Shown here in pieces: positions 3,263 through 52,138 of a stretch of DNA of 64,000 bases. Position numbers and translations under genes: made by a program. The stretch is from positions 54,439 through 118,438 of the forward strand of contig NW_001865052.1 in assembly GCF_000002865.3 (NCBI RefSeq), read 5' to 3'. Within the stretch, counting starts at the first letter, position 1. The number at the start of each line of letters is the position of its first letter. The notes under the pieces were generated by a model, which saw only the letters and a program-made list of their open reading frames with translations, was not told the DNA's origin and ran no database searches. This DNA is from Monosiga brevicollis MX1 (Eukaryota; Opisthokonta; Choanoflagellata; Craspedida; Salpingoecidae).

Positions 3263-3353
<91 letters not shown>
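3263..3353. repeat. (CT)n microsatellite, about 45 units
   Basis: An uninterrupted CT run of about 91 bp. It creates spurious Ser-Leu ORFs on plus and Arg-Glu ORFs on minus. Confidence 0.98.
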
Positions 3354-3356
<3 letters not shown>

Positions 3357-4208
3357 GATTGTCAGATTTGAAAGGCCGATATCGTCACTGCATTCGTGGT
3401 TTGTGTTCTTCAAGCCTTCGCGTATGCTGAGTTCATCTCTTAAGGTTCATTCGCCTTCTTTCTCTGAGATATAGCTACCCATTGGCCCTCGTCTCTGACT
3501 TACTTGTAGAAAGCATGCGAACAACACTCGCTCTCTCCCTTGTTCATTCTACACCTCTTCAGTACAACCTCGCCAACCTCTCTCTCTCTGAAAGGAAAAA
3601 GGTACGACCTCGTCACCTCCCGCCGCTGCCGTCGCCGTCGCCGCTGCCGGTTGCCATCGTTGTTGGGGCGATCTGCAAGCAGCTTTTATATGCACCAGAC
3701 AGACGTGGTGTATCGGGTCGATCAATGCCCCTCCTCCTCTTTGTGTTTCCCCCCGATCAAAGTCCGGCTCGCTTGGTTTGGTTCACTCATACACCTCACT
3801 CGGCTCGCGCGCTTCTTCCAGGGCCCCTCCTCCGGTGTTCCGCCTAATCCGTGCAACGCCACGCGTAGCATAGCCGTCATCCAAGTGAGACACGACCTTC
3901 AAGCAAAAGGACTCTTCTGAACGATCCCGGGCCTTTGCCTTGCACTTGGCAGGCTCGCTTCCGCTCGGGGCAGGGATTTCTATTGGCCCCGTCGCACCGC
4001 ACAACCGCCCGCCTCCCTAACGAGGCCTCTCTGGCCTGCTCCTCCGATATCCGGCATGGTACGCAAGCTTGAGCTGACGGCCGCCTCTTGATCTGCCAGC
4101 CGCACTCCTTGGGGAGATACGATCCAGTTTACACGACCCAGTTTACACGCCACGCCACTGTATCCTCGCAAGCCTATCTGAACCTATCGGGCCCAGGCTC
4201 TGAGCGCC

Positions 4209-7200
4209 ATGGCGTCGGCCACCGGCACCAACACCAACTCTGGCGCCGATGCATCGGGGTGGTGGGCCATTTATCACACTATGCAGGTCAAATATCAGCA
4301 TGACCTGCTGCCCCCCAACATGGATCAATTGCTCCTTGAGGTCGGCCAATTCAACGACCTGGTGCGGAATGATGAGATCAAACTGCTGCATGTAGACGCT
4401 GGTTCGGATCTCGGTGCCAGCGCCTTGCTCGCGGCTTGGATTGAAGGCTATGCCCAGCATCTTCTCAGCCGTCAAACCTCGTCGGATCGCACCGTCGCCT
4501 TTCACTTTTGCGAGTGCACCCCATACTCTCATCTTCAACGCACCACACTTTGCAAGCTCATCACCGACCTGGAGCTACAGCTCGGCCAACACGATGCTGC
4601 CCCTCTCCACCTCCTCAATGTCAACGCCCTTATCGCCAGGCTGCAGGCCCTCCTTTCCCGCAATCAGCGACCGGCCATCATCCTCCTGACAGACCTTCAA
4701 CTCTGGAGCCTCGGCAGTTCCACCTCGGACCTCACCTGGCTCACTGAGCTCGCGTCTCGGCCCAACACAACCCTCGTACTAGCCACGAGCGAAAGCAAGC
4801 TGACGCGTCATTTTAAGCGAACCCCCGGCTACCACCGCTACCCACTTTTAACGCGTGATCGCAACGCCGTCATGGCTGAAACCGCCGCTACCATGTCCCA
4901 CGCGCTCGGTACCTCGGTCCACGTTGGCCAGCTCTTCCCAGTCTTTCAGGAGATCAAGGTCAGTCTGACTCGACTCCGCAGCAACAGCCGTTTCCCTGTG
5001 CCTTTTGTGTCGGACCGGGCGCATGCGAGGGAGGAAGGAGACTTGTCAGACGATCGCTTGCGCCTCTTCTTGTCCATCTTGACCCTTTGTATATTCTAAG
5101 GGTGTCTTGCAAGCGAGGGCAATCCGAAGAGTATCAGTCACCGGTCCACTCTTGTGGGCGAGCTCGATGCCACCACATCTCATGTGATCCACCTCCCTCC
5201 TGCTTCAAACGCAGGTCAAACGACTTGGCGGGCTTCTTTCCCGCACAGAGTGTCCGACTCTCCAATGGTTTGTGACGCCCCTCATCTCACTCTACTTTTC
5301 ATAGGATACCCATGTAAAAAGTCACCACCGCTCCGCCTCTTCCCTCATCAATAGGAACGTGGCGCGCCTTCTGGCTCGGGCCTCTGCAGCGCTAGCTCTT
5401 GGCGAAGAAAAGCCCTCGCTCCGCACAGATGCTGCCATCCGACATGCGCTTCAGCTTTCGGCTCAACCTAGCCAGCAAAAGCGCATGGAGAGTGTTTTGG
5501 ATGCCGTTCTTGCGACGCACAACTCCGTCCGCCGGTTTGTAGGCCGCCATCAGATGCTTGTACTTTTTGTCAAAAATGAGCTTACACTGCATGTTAACCC
5601 TATGCGCAGCGACCTGATTCAAGTCTTGGCAATCATCGCTGCCACCGCAACGGGTGCCTCACCAGCTGAGCTGTCTCTATTGCTCGGACCCGACCCTTTG
5701 ACATTGCGCACAACAGTATGATGCAGTGCAACACCCTAAGCCAGACCATACAAGCCTCGCAAGCGGATCTTGTTGGCTCGAATCTCACGTCTTTGACTTG
5801 ACCTTTGTTTCCAACCCCCGTCCATCTCGATTAGCTTCTTCTGCCGCTACAACCCCTGCTACAGGGTGACGTCAACGATGTAGTGCCCCTTCATCTGGTT
5901 TCACCGCTTTTGAAATCAGGCATTGCTCACTGGGCAGCTGAGCTCGGGATCGAGGCTGACTGGGCACAGCATTGCCGGTGGCGGTTCGTGGGCGCCACTT
6001 TTTTGCCGCGGTGCCCTCCATGTGTGCCTCTGGCGCCGCTGGCGGCAGCGTGACAAGACTCATCACTTCACCCGCGTTGTCATTTTGCAACTTCAGACTG
6101 TTTCTGAGCATTCGACACCACGAGCCTGAACAGGAACCGCGTTGTGCGTCCGAGCTTCAAGCATGGCCACCGACCCCGGGCCAGGTACGCCAGGCTATTC
6201 GCGTGCATGACACTCGCAAGACTCTTGCTCGCTCACTTGTAGGCTCTTCTGCCGTGTACTCTGCGCTCGCGTATTAGGCCACTCCTGAAAATGCTATGTT
6301 ACTCGTGGCCGCCGCGTCCCCTACGCTAGTTGGCACTGAGCTCAAGTGCGCTTTACGCCACATGTGCTCTCGCACCATCGCACTCACTTCACCATGCGTG
6401 GTCACTCATGTTTATCCACCACTTCTCCTTCTTAGTTTTGCGGACATGACCAAGTTGGCCACGCCATCGGCGTTTGAGGAGCTCATGCAGGTGCTGCGTT
6501 TGCATCGAGCATTTAAATCCATCGAGTATGTTTTTATTTGTTTCACCCCTCCCCAACACGCACACGCACGCATCAAACTTACCCGTCGAGGCTTTTCCAT
6601 TCATTGTCGCATGTGAATGCTTTATTATTCTCACACCGACTCACACCCGTCTGCATCGGCGCGTGAACCGTGTACATATAAGTCTAAGTGGGATTGGCTT
6701 CAACGATGACCAGGCGGCGACCCTTGCACAAAATTTGCAAATGTGTCCCAAGTTGGAGTCTGTGCGGTTCGTAAAGTCTTCGCATTGCTGTCGCGCCTCG
6801 ACAAGTCATGTCTCATGTCCAGGCTCTTTTTTCTTTTTCTTCAACTTTTTTTTTACCTCATCCGCAATAAAAAATGGCAAATACAGGTTACACAAAAACC
6901 ATATCACGCGTACTGGAGCCATGGCCATGGCCCTGCATCTACCAGCTCGTGCCTTGGTGAGAATTGTTTTGCGATGACAAATTGACCTGGGCCTATACTC
7001 GCCGCAGGTACTGACGCTCGGCACCACCCTTCTTCAGGTATCTGGCGTTGAGGAGTGGAAGCGAGCTTCTGTGCTGGTAGCCATTCGAGAAGGCACTGCC
7101 AGCGAACTTTGCCTGGATGAGAACATGATTCTGCCTCCCCCCATTATCAATTTCCTGGGCAATGCGCTGGCCTCTTGTGAAGCCGTCACCCGCATCACGT

Positions 7201-8547
7201 CAGTCTCCGCATCCAAGTCATGTTCAGACGTGATACGACTGCTAACGTTTGCCACGCATGTCTTTTGTGGGTTTAAAATGCCACAGGCTGGTTCGCCAGA
7301 CGCTAACAGACGACCAAGCAACAGCACTTGGACACGCTATGGCGCGCATGCCAAGCCTTACGCACCTCAAGTCAGGATGTGTTGCGCTGTGTTCTGTCAT
7401 GCCTGCGTTTGTCCAACGCTTTCATCTCATCTTGCTGTTAAACGCTTGTATCTCATATAGATGGAGCAATTGTGGCTTGAACAACAACGGGGTCCTTGCC
7501 CTCTGTGATGACCGACACAATGCATTGCGTCTGCGCCAGCTCGAGTATGTGGCAAGCGTGGGGCCAACGGTGTACCCATACCTGTTCAAGTACATGCCCG
7601 ATTCTCCACGATGCTGACGTAGTTTTGATGCGCTCGTTGTGCACTATCGTAGCTTGTCTCAGAATAAACTGCGAGACGATGTTGGTGCTGCCCTCGGCCG
7701 GTGTTTGAAGGGAGCCAGCCCCTTGACACATCTCAAGTAGGTAGCATGTGCCCACGAATGTTTCTGTCTGGTCTGGGTTTTGCTGCTGCTCCCTATCGCC
7801 TGAAACCCCTGCTGTGAGCATTCTCCCACTGTGTCAAAAGGCCCTCTCTGACTTGTTTGTGAAATGCCGCTCCTTATTTACAACACTTTCAAATGCAGTT
7901 TGGCGGACAACCTTTTGCAAGACAAGGGTTCGCGAGGGCTTGGCGATGCGCTCAAGAACAACACAAATCTGAAAGTGCTCAAGTGGGGGACTTGCCAAGG
8001 CCCGCCACCCACACCTGACAGTGCATTGCTGCGCTCTAAAATACAGCTCACTGCGCGTGGTTCTGCTCGATTGCACGCTCTTGGCTGACAGCTTGTCTCG
8101 GAACAAATATATTACGCAGATGGGCGTTCGCTTCCTCTGCGAAGGCCTCAAGTCCAATACGGGGCTGCGCCTATTTGCGTTCGTTCTGTTGCGACCCCCC
8201 TAAATACCTGTGCTCGTATCTGAATCCATGTGCATGAACAGATGTAAGCAGGTGCGCTCACAGAATTTTTCACCTTTTTTAGATTTGTCGACAATATTGG
8301 CACTGGGGATGCTGGAGCCCTGCAGTTTGCAGAAGCTCTTCGTCACAATCGAAGCCTTGAGGAGCTCGAGTAAGCTGGCGCACGTTGCTTTGAGCATTTT
8401 CACCGTAGTCAGGAGGTATCTTGCAGCTCACGTTGTGCCTTGGACCTGTCTTCCCCACCTAGTATACATGGCAACAATATCGGCCCAGTGGGCCTGAATG
8501 CTTTACAGGACGCCGCGCAAAATTGGCCCGGTCATCTCCAAGTTTAA
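4209..8547 (+). CDS. NACHT-like STAND ATPase with C-terminal LRR array (NLR-like)
   Basis: The first exon (4209-4958, 250 aa) resembles the NACHT module of the NPHP3/TEP1 group: a P-loop-like region LLHVDAGSDLGASALLAAW, a following strand FHFCECTPYSHLQ, a Walker-B-like AIILLTDLQLW and a sensor strand NTTLVLATSES. The Walker A lysine is missing (GSDLGASA instead of GxxxxGK[ST]). Middle exons at about 5117-5220, 5355-5715 and 5866-6150 carry a helical segment; SPAELSLLLG is typical of the winged-helix region after NACHT, but their borders are uncertain. From 6436 the protein is ribonuclease-inhibitor-type LRRs: exons 6436-6525, 6683-6766, 6887-6956, 7008-7198, 7287-7370, 7461-7544, 7653-7736, 7899-7982, 8092-8178, 8283-8369 and 8463-8547. 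Typical repeats are LSQNKLRDDVGAALGRCL and LADNLLQDKGSRGLGDAL. No CARD, PYD or TIR domain is seen. A sensing role is inferred only. Confidence 0.75.
6436..8547 (+). repeat. Exon-per-repeat LRR array in coding sequence
   Basis: Nine of the eleven LRR exons are 84-90 nt, counting the 85-nt terminal coding segment, and five are exactly 84 nt (28 codons). The boundaries between these repeats fall in the same phase: the last two bases of a codon, usually ..CTCAA or ..CTCGA, precede GT, and the next exon supplies the third base. This implies growth of the array by exon duplication. Confidence 0.85.
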
Positions 8548-8950
8548 GCCCTCTACAAGTTTCACATGTCATTTCTCAGCTGCTACCAACATTCAATTTA
8601 CATCTGATCGACCTGGCTGCCTTTTGTGCTGTTTCTTGCTACTTGATATCGCCCACCATAACCCCCCGAACCACAGCAATTCCAGATTCTATTATAATCT
8701 TCTATCAAGAAACATCCAACATACAGACAAGTTCGCCAAGCTGCACGCGTGCATACACACTTCAAAACTCATGCGGCCATGGCATTGAGGTGCAACAGGG
8801 CAAACCAACAAATCTCGACGATTAATCAAACAAAAATGTACCAACGTTCTTCTTCCGTCTGAGTCTCAGCACATGCATCGGGCACCAATTGGGCACAAAT
8901 GTTGACTGAAGCTAATGAAATAATCTTAAAGTGACCAATCCAAAGTGTAA
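8548..8950. other. Short intergenic region between convergent genes
   Basis: About 400 bp, AT-richer than its surroundings, between the stop of the NLR-like gene and the stop of the cyclase gene. It must contain both 3' UTRs. No ORF of interest is seen. Confidence 0.6.
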
Positions 8951-11700: not shown

Positions 11701-14700
11701 AGCATGTGTAAGTTTGAGGCATGCATGGCCAAGACTTTGGTGCAGGTAAAGACCACACGTGCTGGCCGATCATATTTGAAAATGAGCGTACGTGATCTTC
11801 ACGGGAGTCGCAGAGTCGAGCCAGTTCGTAGAGGAGCAACCAGCCACCATCGTGTGCAACATCCACCGAGTTGTGAAAAAGTCGCATCACAAGAAAAGTA
11901 GGATACTCGTCGGCGTAGCTGGTGACGATCCGAGCCACGATTCGCACAACCAAGACGTCGTTGATGGACACCTCGGGAAGCTGCAGACAACACACAGCCA
12001 GGCACATCAGCACTTATCCAAGCCCCAGCTAACAGCGTACATGAACTGCGTGCACACATACCTCGCCCATAGGAAGATCCTCCAAGTGACGCCACAGGCT
12101 GATAGGGATGGCTTTGCAGCCAACCAAGCTATGGTGTGACCAATTAGGGACAGACCAACAATAAGAAGAAGGGAGCAAGGAAGACACTGTCTGATTGTAA
12201 AAGCGCACACGCCACACATCATAAACACCGACGCACTCTTCGCTTTCTCGATCATTTGGGGCAAGCATGGTTTCAATCCACTTCTCCACGTCAATATCCT
12301 TCTTTTTCAGATTGGTAAAAAGCTATGCCAAAACGCGTTGTTCCAATCAAAAAGCGTCCGTTGGTGAGACGTGCACAAGTAGCGCGCCCATCAGTCTCAT
12401 CAGGCCACGACAAACCTGTTGAAGGATGGCAGCGGCGTATTGCCACTTTTCATCGCTCACGAGAACCATATGTCGTGGGCCAGCATGCTCGCCCTGCGTC
12501 TGCTTTCGACGCTGCGCCTGGTCTCCCACGCGCAACATGGCGCGCTGATCACTGGGAGCAATTACCACGTTCATCCCACGGTCGCGGGCGGCTGCAGCCA
12601 AGCACAGACAAATTGATCGGCAACACACACACACATACATGTGAGTTGCATGTTCAAAAAGAAAGCCGTGCATAGACTGGAGCCCTTGCAGCCCTTGCCA
12701 GCATGGGATGAGGGCATTCTTGAGTAACCATGCGATAGAGTCAGACTGGAAAGCACGTGGAACGAAGCAGAGCTAGATGTCCAACGTACAGCGCATCAAA
12801 GCTGCCGCCAGTGGGGTTTTGCCGTAGCCGGGTTGTGCGGTCAAAAGGATTGTTCCCCCCTGTACGCCCAGGAGCAAGCCAGAAGACGACGTGAGTTGCG
12901 GAATGAGGGCGGCGTTGAGGCCTGAAAAAGCCCGCGAGGCTGGGTTGGCATTTCGAGTAGGCCCAAAAAAGCGGTGACCAAGCAGCTGCCACGCACGCTA
13001 TGATTATAAAGACGTCCGAGCCAACCGCGAAGGGTTTCCAGCTCGTCTTCGCGACCTGCCATGTACGTGTCTTCTTCCAGACGATCATCATGATCGCTCT
13101 TGAGATAGTCAGAGAGGATGCTGGAGCGGGGGGCTGGTTGAAAGGCTGGCACGGGGTGGGCCTTGCCCTTGAGTGTCAGGGGCTGCAGCGTTGTAAATTC
13201 AAAGTCATCTCCAGCATATTCAGCCACCACGGCCCGCGTGGCCTCATCGATCAAAACGCCTGGACACGACAAGGCCAAGACCAGTGAGCGGCGCGCAAAG
13301 TTTAGAGCGACGGGGCTAGTGCTGCACGACGAGAAGACAAGTGTCCATACTTGATGCCGTGGCCTTGGCCATGAGGCGTGCCGAGAGGTTGACGGCATCG
13401 CCAAGAACGGTATATTCATGGCGTTCCTTGGAGCCAACAACACCGCAGAAAACACGGCCGGTGGTCACGCCAACACGCGCAAACACGTGATCACCCAGAT
13501 TACTGTCCCCCATTCGTTTGCACCAGAGGTCGCGGTCGTGAGAAGGTCTGATAGTTGGCGGACGGGCATGATTGGCGGCGAAGACACAATGTGTACCTGA
13601 TACCAGCTGCCAAGTCAAGGGCGGCACAGACGGCGCGAACGGGATCATCGCCATGATGCACAAAGGGAGGAAGGCCAAACACACAGAGTGCTAGTAGACC
13701 CTTGTCGTCCACAAGAAGCTTGTTGATGACACCCTCGTAGTTGAAGATGACGCGCTGCAACTCGGTCATGAGCCGCTGGCCAGCCGCCACGGCCTATGGA
13801 CGAAAAGGATGGTGCTTTGAGCTGGCTCAGCTTCGGGAGCCAAGACAATCCAAACGAGACAAACCTCTTTGCAGTCGCCACTTGGAGACGGTTCTAATCG
13901 TAGCCCGCGAATGTTGACAAAGACAATGGAGAGCTGTCCATACCCAGCGTGGTGAGTCAGTGACGAGGCAAAACAATAGGCCTCAACGGCGGCGGCGGCG
14001 GGCACGTACAGTTCGCAGTTCGGCGATATGCTCCGCTGTGGAGGCTTCAAGGCGAACACGGGCAACTTTTGGGATGTAGCGAGCCATGTACGGCACCAAG
14101 CTGGTGGTTACCGGGAGCACAGGTGGAGTGCAGTCCGTGATCACGTGCTCGGTATCGACTGAGCGCAGCTTGACAAAACGCTTTAGGTAGTCAATGTCTA
14201 TTTCAACACCGCTGTATATGAGCCTCGGCCCGCATATTCGAGCAACCGGGATGGGCGCATGGTGGATCCATGGTCACGACGTGGAAGGCGGATAGGCAGG
14301 CACCAAACCTGAGAAGCCATCAGCGCTGGCATCCACGACCGGATTTGTCAAGGGATCCACCTCGACCAGATCCCCGAGCAAGTCGTGACTCTCTGCATCA
14401 TTAGAAAGGACACGGAAGCCATGAGTACGCATGCACGTGTGTATGAGATCCAAACGCATGGGATCAAAGCGGCAGCTCGCTCGCTTCCCTGGCTTCAGGA
14501 TACGAGTCAGCAGACCGAGTACCGACCTGGAGATAACACGACCTCGCCTGCGATGCTGTTGGCCTCTGCAATTGCAATTTGCTTGAGTGGTTGGCCAGCC
14601 AGAACGTACTCCCAGCATTTGAAGACGCCGCCCACATGGATGGCAGCCAGCTTGCCCACCTAATCATTTTTTTTTATATATATATTGATAAAAATAGGGT

Positions 14701-23800: not shown

Positions 23801-26800
23801 TTACTTGGTCCAGTCGTCGTAAATATCGTAATCTTTGGTCAGAGATGAGCCCTCACCCGAGGAGATGTCCATACCACCCTGACGACGGCGCCGCACAACC
23901 GCGATGCCAACCGCGACAATGACAATCACGATGCCACCGGCCACAGCGGCAATGATGATGACCAACGTGGTGTCATCGTTACTCGACTCCTCCCCCGTCG
24001 ACTGCTCGCCGCCGACCGGATTCGATGATGACTGCGGCCCTCCATTGGACGGCGTCGTGGTTGTCGTTGTTGTCGTTGAGGTTGTGGTGCGACGGCGCGT
24101 CGTGGTCGTCGTGGTCGTGGTCGTGGTCGTCGTCGTCGTGGTTGTGGTCGTCGTCGTCGTCGTCGTCATCTTCACCGCTGCCAAGTCTGGGGCACTCTGC
24201 TCGCTGAACGGATTCTCACTGCTCGTGGGCTGCTCGTTTGCGCCCGAACGAATGGCCGGGTTTTGAAGCTCAGCAACCAGTTCGTCAGTGTCATCCAACA
24301 TGGCAGCGGCCTCGCCCTGGTTCAAGCTCGTAGGTAGCTCCACAATCACGTCCACGACTTGGTTCAAGTCGCGACGACGCGTGTCAACAGCCACCACGCC
24401 CACGCGCACCTCATCCATGTCCACGGCCGAAATGAAGAGCTTTCGCACAGCGTTGATGAAAATTCGCCGCGCAAGCGTGTTCTGAGTCAGATCCTGCGTG
24501 CCCCCCACATTGGTCAGCTCGAAGGAGCGCCTCAAGAAGAAACGGTTGGCCCCAGGAAGAGCGCGGATCGGACCACATGTGGCATCGCGACGCGAAGACG
24601 GCGCCTGAGATTCCATCTGTCCCGACGCGCAGGCGGTCCAAGCAAAGCAGGTCGGTGCACCATCGATGCCATACGTGCCAAAGGGACATGCTTTGCACTC
24701 GGTTGGCTGTGTGGGGCCTGTCACGCCGCAGTAGGTCGCCACATGCTCGTCGTCCGCACAGCTAGCACAAGGCGTGCACGTAACGGTTGTGACGCCATTG
24801 GCGCAGCCACCCGTGCGATAGGAGTTGTCCTCGCACGTGTTGCAGGCCGCGCATTGGCGATCCGTGGTGCTGGTGGGCGATGCCGTTTCGACGCTAAACG
24901 CCCCACATGATCGCAGGGGCGTACACTCAATGTCCGAGGTGGTTGTCGCTGGGCCGGACTGGTATGAACCGGCGGGGCAGGCGGAGGAGACCGGCTTGCA
25001 GCTCGCGGCCCCCGCTTCATCCTGATAGGTCGTGCCCTCCACGCAAGCCGTGCACACCGCGCCGTCAGAAGGCCATGCCCAAGTGGAACCAGCGCAGTAG
25101 AGCCTGGGGCTGTCCGCCGCATACCCGGCCGCACAAGATACGGCACAGAAACTGCCAGCTCCATTGCTGGCGGTGCAGTCGGTCGTGCCGATGCCTTCAA
25201 AGTCGCTCTCCGACACCCCCGCGCTGCAGGTGCGGTACTCGCACGGGAAGGCAGAACCAGTTTCCCAGCCATCGGCGCCGCACCGCACGAGCAAGGCCGA
25301 CGTGTTGACGTAGCCCACTTCGCAGGACACATCGCACACGGTCCCAAAGGTGGTGGCTTCGCAGTCCACCTCGGCGTTGGTGATTGTGGGCTGGGTACCG
25401 CAATCCTTGGGCGTGCAACCTGAGCTACCAATACCATCGCCTTCATACCCGTCGGGACAAACGTCGCACGCAAAGGAACCCGCCAAGTTTTGGCAGCCTA
25501 CACCCGGATAGCAAGGATCATCCACACACTCATCGTCGTCGATGCAGGTCCCATTGGGTGCTTGGGTATAGCCCGAGGGACAGGGCTCACACTCGTAGGT
25601 TCCATTCAGGTTGACGCATTCACGCAGCGCCGGGCAATATTGAGCAATGCCGGCGCGTTGCTGCGCGCACTCGTCAATGTCCCGGCACACGCGACCTTCC
25701 TGATAGGTCGTGTACCCTGTCGGGCAGTTGGAGCAGGAGACCACACCGCTGGCAAAGGAGCAGTTGCTGAGTGGATCGCACGGACTATCCGCGCACAGGT
25801 CTTGGAGCTCGCACGTCAAGTTGCCCTCCCAAGAGCCGTCACCGCCGCAAACGAACGTATTGGAAATGCCGTCCGGCACGACATAGTGCGTCCTGCAGCG
25901 CTGGACGCAGGTCGCGCCGTACGCCACGTTGACGCAGGCATCATTCCGCGCATTGGCATCCAAACCGGGGATGGTAGTCGGGCACACCACCTCCTCGCAT
26001 GTGTAGCCATCGCCGGTGTAGCCCGCGGGGCAAGGATCACACGTGTACGTATTGGATTCGGTGCCCGGATGGCAGAGTTCGGGCAAACCGCATGGCCCCA
26101 GCAGGCAGGCATTGACGTAAGCAGTAGTGGTGCTCGTGGTCGTGGTCACATCCAGGGAACTGCAAGCATTGTCAGCAAAGGTGCAATCGTCGCGTGCAGT
26201 GCATTCGCTGGAACTGAAGATGTACGTGCAGGGCACATCTGCGCCGGTGTTAACGCAGACATCGTAGGCATCTCGCCATTCGCATGTCTGAGTCCGCCCG
26301 TCGTTGTCGTGGGTACAGGAGGTCGCGGTGGGCAGCGCTTGGCACGGGGTCTCGTGTCCGGCCGCGAAGCACTCCTCCTGGTAGGCGTCGTAGACACATG
26401 CGTCGAGAATCTCACAATAGAAACGAGAGGAGACAAGGCCGCAGTCCCGCTGCTCACAGGAATTGGTCCCGAACGAGCTGCAGTAGTAGGCTGGACACTC
26501 GGCGGCACTGAACGAGCTACAGGCCGGAAGGTCTGCGGGAGCGGCGCACTCGGTAGGATCGCTGCACGGCTGACAGCCCTGGCTCGAGTCGTATTGGCAA
26601 CCGCCCACAAAGGTACAGGCGGCCTCCGTCTGGTAGACCATGCAAGGAACGGTCGAATTGAGGTCGTAACAGCGGTTTGCATACACGTTGAACGTACAGG
26701 TGGGGTCTTCCGCGCAGCGCGTCTCATCAGTGTACAGATGGCAGTCAACGGGATCTTCTTTACCCAGGCACTGCTCAATAGCATCGTAGTAGATGCAGCG

Positions 26801-28016
26801 CGTGTCGGGGCACGAGGCCGCATCGTAGAGGTGGCAGGGTGTGGCCTCGCCCTGCACATTGCAGAAGGCACGAGCGCTGTCCCATTGGCAGTCCTCCGAG
26901 GCGGCGCAAGTGGCAGCGATGGTAATTTCGTTACACGGATCGGGGGCGGTGGCATTCTTGCAACGCCCACCTTGATCGTCCACGTTGTCGACAAACACAC
27001 AGGTGCCCTGAAGAAAAGTGGTGCATTCCTCTGCCAGTGTAAGGGCGTCGCACGTCATTGGCGCGCAGGTGTCAAAGCCGCCATAAACGTTGGTTGTAGG
27101 CACGCAGCGGGGCAGTGCAGCCAGGCAGGCCGCGTTGGAAGTGAGTTCAGCGCATGGTGCGCCGCTATCGACGTCGGTGCACTGGCGACGGGTAGAGATG
27201 TAGTTGCATGACTTCTGATCGCAAGCACAGCGCTCGTCGCCCAGGTCAAAACAGGACACGGGAGCACAGGTGTCGTTGCCGTCCCAGCGGCAAAGCGGGG
27301 TATCGGCACCACACGTATCGCCGTCTGATATGCCGTTGCAGTTGGCATCGTAGGTTGGACAAGCCTGAACACAGGAGGCGCTCTGGCCAGCAGCGCAGGG
27401 CGAGCACTGCAGGCCCGAGCTATTATAAGTGCAGTAGTCGCTGTAGAGGCAGTCGTCGCGAGCGAGGTACATGCACGGCAGGCTCTCATTGATGGCCAGG
27501 CAGTAGGCGCCATTTGCAACGAAGCGGCAACGATCGCCGTGGCTGAGGCAGCGTGCTTGATCGCCGTTATACACCTCGCAGCTGCTGGCCGTGTCAGGGT
27601 CCGTGCAGAAGGATAGATCCTCGACAAAGCTGCAGTAGTCGGGGCAAGAGGCCGCAGTGCCGTAGTACGTGCAGGGCACTTGCTCGTCTTGGTCAAAGCA
27701 ACGGTCAGCCTCTTGGCTAAATTTGCAGTTCAGGGAGCTTGAGTTGCACACGGCCTCAGAACTGAGATCGCTGCAGCGGAGGTCTCGGCAAGCTTCGTTG
27801 TCAACGCCCAGCGGGAAGCAGCGTGTTTGAGGACAGGCCTCAACGCTGTAGCTGTCGCACGCTTGGCTGGTGTCAACGGGCGAGCATACTTCGCGATCGC
27901 TGAGCCAACTGCAGTCGGCCTTGTTTTGGCAGGCGGACTATTGCGAGATGAACACGCCAAAACACGAGGCGTGAGTTCGTTCGGAGGCAGTAAGACTGAT
28001 TTGAGCGGGAAGGAAG

Positions 28017-49934: not shown

Positions 49935-52138
<2,204 letters not shown>

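Follow-up and report, generated by a model that had tools for sequence, protein, structure and literature searches.

The locus considered here raises the question of whether a NACHT domain followed by leucine-rich repeats (LRRs), the layout of the animal NOD-like receptors (NLRs), denotes a working, nucleotide-switched receptor in a choanoflagellate. The window analyzed is a 64,000-nucleotide stretch of the Monosiga brevicollis MX1 genome (contig NW_001865052.1, positions 54,439 to 118,438), in which a gene model of 15 exons occupies positions 4209-8547 of the plus strand. A first-pass annotation, made from the letters alone, had described an NLR-like gene and had guessed correctly that its host was a choanoflagellate. 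In agreement with this source, a Munc18 exon of the genome matches chain 2XHE_A, part of the M. brevicollis Munc18-syntaxin complex (PMC3693963), at 47 of 49 aligned residues, with differences at the two ends only. Our analysis indicates that exon 1 is a pseudo-ATPase NACHT domain of the NPHP3/TEP1/NWD subtype, which appears to have kept its fold and lost the residues that handle ATP. The reading we favor, with a probability of about one half, is that a single gene encodes a protein made of this NACHT relic, a linker and an LRR array, and that the protein acts as a nucleotide-independent scaffold or modulator. The annotation had correctly located two real halves, and splice signals and phase make it likely that these belong to a single gene.

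The NACHT-like domain of exon 1

Exon 1 (4209-4958, plus strand) comprises 250 codons followed by a gt donor. It starts at the first in-frame ATG (4209), just downstream of a stop codon (4179-4181) that closes the frame, and the open frame around it runs 305 codons from stop to stop. Its predicted NPHP3/TEP1-type NACHT-like NTPase domain, assigned from profile matches and an AlphaFold model, covers residues 38-235 (approximately 4320-4913 on the plus strand). A profile built from 52 prokaryotic NPHP3/TEP1-type NACHT domains (59 matched loci, less 7 with too short a frame) scores exon 1 at 39.6 bits (E 4e-11), the best of 2222 controls reaching 8.8 bits; two M. brevicollis NACHT loci of other types obtain 17-18 bits with the NPHP3/TEP1-type profile. 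Residues 64, 65, 67, 69, 70, 72-75, and 77 were imposed by the P-loop pattern used to collect the 52 rows, and the conservation of Gly64, Gly67, Lys70, Ala72, Leu74, Ala75, and Trp77 is therefore no evidence on its own. As a control for this pattern-forced conservation, the profile was run without its P-loop part, and it still matches exon 1 (25.3 bits, E 9e-7). These data bear out the first-pass placement of the domain in the NPHP3/TEP1 group, and they indicate a match above chance that is obtained solely with profiles built in this analysis.

A second profile, made from seven NACHT members of the M. brevicollis genome, ranks exon 1 first at E 3.4e-6 or better when any member except the TEP1-like L003 is removed. 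Pairwise comparison of exon 1 with L003, its closest NACHT in the genome, is unconvincing (blastp E 0.007 in a seven-sequence database; phmmer E 0.11), and a pairwise search of the genome (39.5 Mb, 57 contigs) with exon 1 or the whole NACHT part matches this gene only. Likewise, a search for related loci found no relative with a one-protein query and no usable conserved stretch with an alignment query. MmeI_N, another weak Pfam match of exon 1 (E 0.039; E 0.016 against 0.074 for AAA_16 in an alternative model of the NACHT half), was set aside as a chance match because it falls under its cut-off and the NPHP3-type profile fits the stretch far better.

The AlphaFold model of the NACHT domain has a predicted local distance difference test (pLDDT) score of 77.7; a model of exon 1 alone (pLDDT 38.9) was not used. 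The fold neighbors of the domain model are AAA+/STAND chains, including Avs3 and plant NLRs. The list is headed by chains of Orc1/Cdc6 and TnsC, which outscore the highest-ranking STAND chain, that of Avs3, by about 2 Z units, and the comparison of this predicted fold supports AAA+/STAND and not NACHT specifically. There are no animal NLR chains among the 50 fold matches listed, which excludes nothing.

The putative ATPase site was compared with an alignment (A2) of 53 prokaryotic rows, gathered under a slightly looser length rule than the 52-row set. The first-pass annotation had pointed to a P-loop region and to a Walker-B-like stretch, AIILLTDLQLW; both are correctly placed, but their defining residues have been replaced. 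In the degenerate Walker A (4398-4421, plus strand), AGSDLGAS stands where relatives have GESGSGKS. Gly64, Gly67, and Lys70 are present in 53/53 rows of A2, where the search pattern forced them, and the candidate has Ala, Asp, and Ala, respectively. In the degenerate Walker B strand AIILLTDLQ (4674-4700, plus strand), Thr161 takes the place of the acid, which is Asp in 50 and Glu in 3 of the 53 rows. Replacement extends to other positions that the pattern left free, namely Ser192 (52/53) to Ala, Gly102 (51/53) to Glu, and Arg188 (41/53) to Thr, while His99 (49/53), Leu163 (44/53), Leu175 (47/53), and Trp177 (49/53) are retained. The Walker A lysine is also found in 9/10 P-loop-bearing NACHT pieces of the M. 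brevicollis genome, which were sampled without that pattern; the exception, L057, has GSGCRE. L057 (555-2174, plus strand) is thus a second NACHT of this genome with a Lys-less P-loop (GDSGSGCRE).

The working STAND switch implied by the first-pass annotation finds no support, given the loss of both the Walker A lysine and the Walker B acid. Since catalytic residues are replaced even at positions unforced by the search pattern, ATP switching by this protein appears very unlikely. A functional, ATP-switched immune sensor resembling animal NLRs could be proposed from the order of the domains, NACHT followed by LRRs, and from the occurrence of Avs3 and plant NLRs among the fold neighbors. The replacement of the Walker A lysine, two Walker A glycines, the Walker B aspartate and Ser192 makes such a sensor highly improbable, as does the absence of CARD, Death, PYD, TIR, and DUF4062 from the Pfam matches of the model. 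With respect to effector domains, the first-pass annotation had seen no CARD, PYD or TIR, and it was right: none of CARD, PYD, Death, BIR or TIR occurs among the Pfam matches of exon 1 and the spliced models at E up to 10, an upstream spliced exon being still possible.

The LRR array and the extent of the gene

The C-terminal half is, with certainty as far as its sequence can tell, an RI-type (ribonuclease-inhibitor-type) LRR array of about ten repeats. Pfam LRR_6 matches it with 57.6 bits (cut-off 23.4) and an E-value of 6.1e-16, five stretches match individually, and all of its Pfam matches are to LRR families, with no WD40 or TPR. The half begins with exon 5 (6436-6525), for which the acceptor and the coding score speak, and its first LRRs lie in exons 6-8 (6683-6766, 6887-6956, and 7008-7198), with repeat-profile matches in exons 6 and 7. 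Exons 9-13 (7287-7370, 7461-7544, 7653-7736, 7899-7982, and 8092-8178) carry one LRR per phase-2 exon of 84-87 nt, and exons 14 and 15 (8283-8369 and 8463-8547) carry the final LRRs and the stop codon (8545-8547); LRR_6 and the repeat profile match in both groups. Exons 6 and 9-14 are each 84 or 87 nt long, are in phase 2 at both ends, and hold one repeat apiece. Among PDB sequences, 78 match the LRR half; the best is 5irl (1.9e-15), which is listed as 'Uncharacterized protein' and which we take to be rabbit NOD2. The best 60 of the 78 further include LRRP, LRRC34, ribonuclease inhibitor, DRC5, radial spoke protein 15, and several NLRPs, and NLR chains among the matches include NLRP3, NLRP5, NLRP14, and NLRX1. 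The RI-type array of the first-pass annotation is therefore confirmed by LRR_6 and by the PDB matches. No function was derived from these matches, because RI-type LRRs look alike across functions.

The gene model was built by hand from splice signals and reading frames. Its 14 introns all have GT/AG borders, and its continuous frame encodes 778 (or 796) residues. Between the two halves lie exon 2 (5215-5267 or 5215-5271, with two donor choices), placed by splice signals and frame only; exon 3 (5355-5715 or 5305-5715, with two acceptor choices), which occupies the position of a winged helix and is backed by the coding score; and exon 4 (5835-5977), by position the end of the STAND part, which the model and the coding score suggest. 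In a codon score in which alternative frames carry a penalty for stops, the annotated frame exceeds both alternatives in 14 of the 15 exons, the exception being exon 2; the score of exons 7, 13, and 15 is slightly below zero even in frame. Of the two blocks first proposed, 6436-8547 holds as the LRR half, whereas 4209-5720 is not a single block, exon 1 ending at 4958 and exons 2-4 following. Head to head with this gene, a protein kinase piece (Pkinase, 2.1e-15) lies at 2240-2854 of the window on the minus strand; the spacer of about 1.35 kb contains a (CT)n repeat at approximately 3263-3354.

The locus could also be the decaying pseudogene of an NPHP3/TEP1-type gene, which would account for the missing catalytic positions and for exons 2-4 being without a profile match. 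The 305-codon open frame that holds exon 1, GT/AG borders at 14/14 introns and coding bias in 14/15 exons argue otherwise, as does the retention of His99 and Trp177 while the catalytic residues were lost, and decay of this kind is a very doubtful explanation.

On the basis of splice signals and phase, the NACHT and LRR halves are probably one gene. The donor of exon 4 and the acceptor of exon 5 are compatible in phase, and a direct intron (5978-6435) belongs to the top-scoring of the chains tried under an ad hoc splice score. The exon 5 acceptor has pyrimidines at 14/15 positions, which is matched by 10 of the 4010 AGs on the plus strand of the window. Without splicing, exon 4 would continue to a stop at 6051-6053, and this extension scores about -0.18 bits per codon across 24 codons, below every exon of the model.

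Several results weigh against a single gene for a NACHT relic, linker and LRRs. With respect to the NACHT half, exon 1 has zero matches above cut-off among the curated profiles of Pfam, PADLOC, and NCBIfam, and the Pfam NACHT model matches neither exon 1 nor the spliced models. The Pfam check that had been proposed for NACHT, AAA and LRR_6 thus recovered LRR_6, did not recover NACHT, and gave for exon 1 an AAA_16 match under its cut-off (E 0.018); a STAND/NACHT match for exon 1 comes from the profiles built here and not from curated models. Moreover, when L003 is left out of the seven-member profile, exon 1 falls to E 0.11 and one control scores higher. Exons 2-4 have no profile support as a winged helix: the own-genome profile gives 1.3 bits, a score that about 350 of 2000 shuffled sequences exceed, or about 250 under the alternative exon choice, and a longer prokaryotic profile of 46 rows finds the colinear place, but at -1.3 bits. 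With respect to the junction, the weights of the splice score are ad hoc and runner-up chains are only 1 to 1.5 units behind; the gap between the halves (5978-6435), at 458 nt, would be longer than any other intron of the model; and the LRR frame contains an ATG at 6446. The stretch 5901-6865 is free of all seven AATAAA/TATA-type hexamers sought, which carries little weight because the 450 nt past the stop at 8547 contain just one of the seven (AATGAA at 8914).

Alternatively, the locus may hold two adjacent genes: one short and encoding a degenerate NACHT (from 4209 to the stop at 6051-6053), the other a separate RI-type LRR gene that begins at ATG 6446. Unspliced, exon 4 runs into an in-frame stop, the ATG lies in the LRR frame, the gap exceeds all other introns of the model, and ribonuclease inhibitor is one of the stand-alone RI-LRR proteins that the LRR half matches. 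On the other hand, a strong acceptor lies just upstream of ATG 6446, in phase 2 as in exons 6, 7, and 9-15, and the extension of exon 4 to its stop scores under every exon of the model. We regard two genes as unlikely, though as an alternative of some substance.

Possible roles and NACHT relatives in the genome

Under the favored reading of a NACHT relic, linker and LRR protein, one transcript would join both halves and yield a protein of about 780 residues: first a NACHT of the NPHP3/TEP1/NWD subtype, then a linker where a winged helix is expected, and then about ten RI-type LRRs. Such a protein would function without ADP/ATP switching. Through its LRRs it would bind a partner protein, and its inactive NACHT could pair with or restrain a further protein, perhaps one of the cell's own intact NACHT proteins.

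A ciliary or axonemal scaffold overlaps with this proposal, from which it is distinguished by where the protein would act: in the flagellum, with the LRRs as the docking part and the NACHT relic in a structural role. Several of the better structure matches are listed as LRRC34, DRC5, radial spoke protein 15, and LRRP, which are flagellar or ciliary proteins, and NPHP3 is itself a ciliary protein. However, RI-type LRRs cross-match regardless of function, ribonuclease inhibitor and NLRPs appear in the same list, and NPHP3 carries TPRs, not LRRs. A role in the flagellum is accordingly rated as unlikely.

Relatives of the domain were surveyed in 12 stretches of 10 kb from the genome, which include every one of the 9 rows that the Pfam NACHT search gave down to E 0.00103, together with three P-loop loci of weaker score. 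L053 (8077-9999, minus strand; G000:C50, approximately 235-237 kb) combines DUF4062 (1.6e-13) with a NACHT of TEP1/NPHP3 type (7.2e-10) and has an intact P-loop, whereas the gene model has no Pfam match to DUF4062, an upstream spliced exon being still possible. About 4 kb from L053 lies an NWD1-like NACHT gene, L058. HTH_NWD1 exceeds its cut-off in L058 and L060, and two other NWD1-like NACHT genes fall short of it, L059 narrowly and L056 by more; L055 is a NACHT-WD40 gene and L054 an NPHP3_N gene. With a profile of the gene's own repeats, no convincing RI-type LRR array was found near other NACHT genes in the 12 stretches (L060 only, E 0.68), and in an LRR_6 search of the genome 0/48 rows were within 10 kb of these NACHT loci, a weak negative since the same search missed this gene's own LRRs. 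A further STAND-type gene, L061 (G000:C44:695501-705500), extends over three open frames that the NPHP3/TEP1-type profile scores at 46.7, 35.1, and 21.0 bits; its nSTAND_NTPase5 match (1.5e-5) is under the cut-off of that model.

In the available text of a 2026 preprint, the DUF4062 domains of bacteria and of human TEP1 are described as TIR-like NADases; DUF4062 adjoins NACHT in NWD1, NWD2, TEP1, and NPHP3, with assay activity in TEP1 only (PMC13174449). By its sequence, L053 is a candidate TIR-like NADase. A more elaborate proposal would be that the locus is a pre-animal NLR layout, made independently of the animal NLRs by fusion of an NPHP3/TEP1-type NACHT to RI-type LRRs, and that it later became a catalytically dead partner, sensing via its LRRs and licensing or restraining an intact DUF4062-NACHT protein (e.g., L053) whose DUF4062 could be a TIR-like NADase as in human TEP1. 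This chain of events is improbable as a whole.

Elsewhere in the window, a class III nucleotide cyclase piece (Guanylate_cyc, 2.9e-7) lies at 13319-13690 on the minus strand, within a locus at 12844-13690. The adjoining frame (12844-13464, minus strand), AGREDELETLRGWL, resembles by eye the AAA_16/STAND start of soluble adenylate cyclases and has no Pfam match. The window also contains a Forkhead domain piece (50939-52135, plus strand; 4.9e-13) and a 1378-codon open frame that encodes calcium-binding EGF domains (23804-27937, minus strand; EGF_CA 2.6e-9).

Comparison with NLRs and NPHP3/TEP1-type proteins

Like the animal NLRs (NLRC/NLRP/NOD), the M. brevicollis gene has a NACHT followed by RI-type LRRs, the latter matching NLRP3, NLRP5, NLRP14, NLRX1, and 5irl. 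Unlike them, it lacks a CARD/PYD/Death match and a Pfam NACHT match, its NACHT is of the NPHP3/TEP1/NWD subtype, and its P-loop is lost. An 'ancestral scaffold' of animal NLRs, as had been suggested, looks unlikely on these sequence grounds because of that subtype. With the NPHP3/TEP1/NWD1/NWD2-type proteins (DUF4062-NACHT, several with WD40), the gene shares the NACHT subtype by profile, but it has LRRs in place of any DUF4062 or WD40 match and has lost the ATPase site.

The layout itself, which the first-pass annotation had described as usually regarded as an animal innovation, is already known outside animals, since Richter et al. (2018) report the domain pair in choanoflagellates (PMC6040629). 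In the available portions of that paper, the LRR-containing NLR family is undetected in choanoflagellates; its methods describe NACHT+LRR proteins in multiple choanoflagellates, with Death or CARD in none, and allow that NLRs may be animal innovations, and the plant NBS-LRR pathway is cited as independently evolved (PMC6040629). Those proteins and the present gene thus have the same pair, also without Death or CARD. The same portions do not address NACHT subtype or the state of the P-loop, and relative to them the NPHP3/TEP1/NWD subtype and the lost active site are what the present gene adds. Nothing on this gene is found in the portions available of PMC2939053, PMC4986451, PMC12909245, and PMC8075586. 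For a dead family member, the plant modulator NLRs NRCX and NRG1C offer an analogy: executor function is reported as lost in them, and a role in tuning other NLRs has been proposed, but they have NB-ARC and not NACHT, and the P-loop of NRCX is intact (PMC9851556).

If the reading is true, a NACHT-LRR gene of the NPHP3/TEP1/NWD subtype in a choanoflagellate would point to one more separate origin of this layout. Its apparently lost ATPase site is a caution that counting choanoflagellate 'NLRs' from domain lists alone can inflate the repertoire, and the intact DUF4062/NACHT relatives in the M. brevicollis genome would be direct test objects for TIR-like NADase activity.

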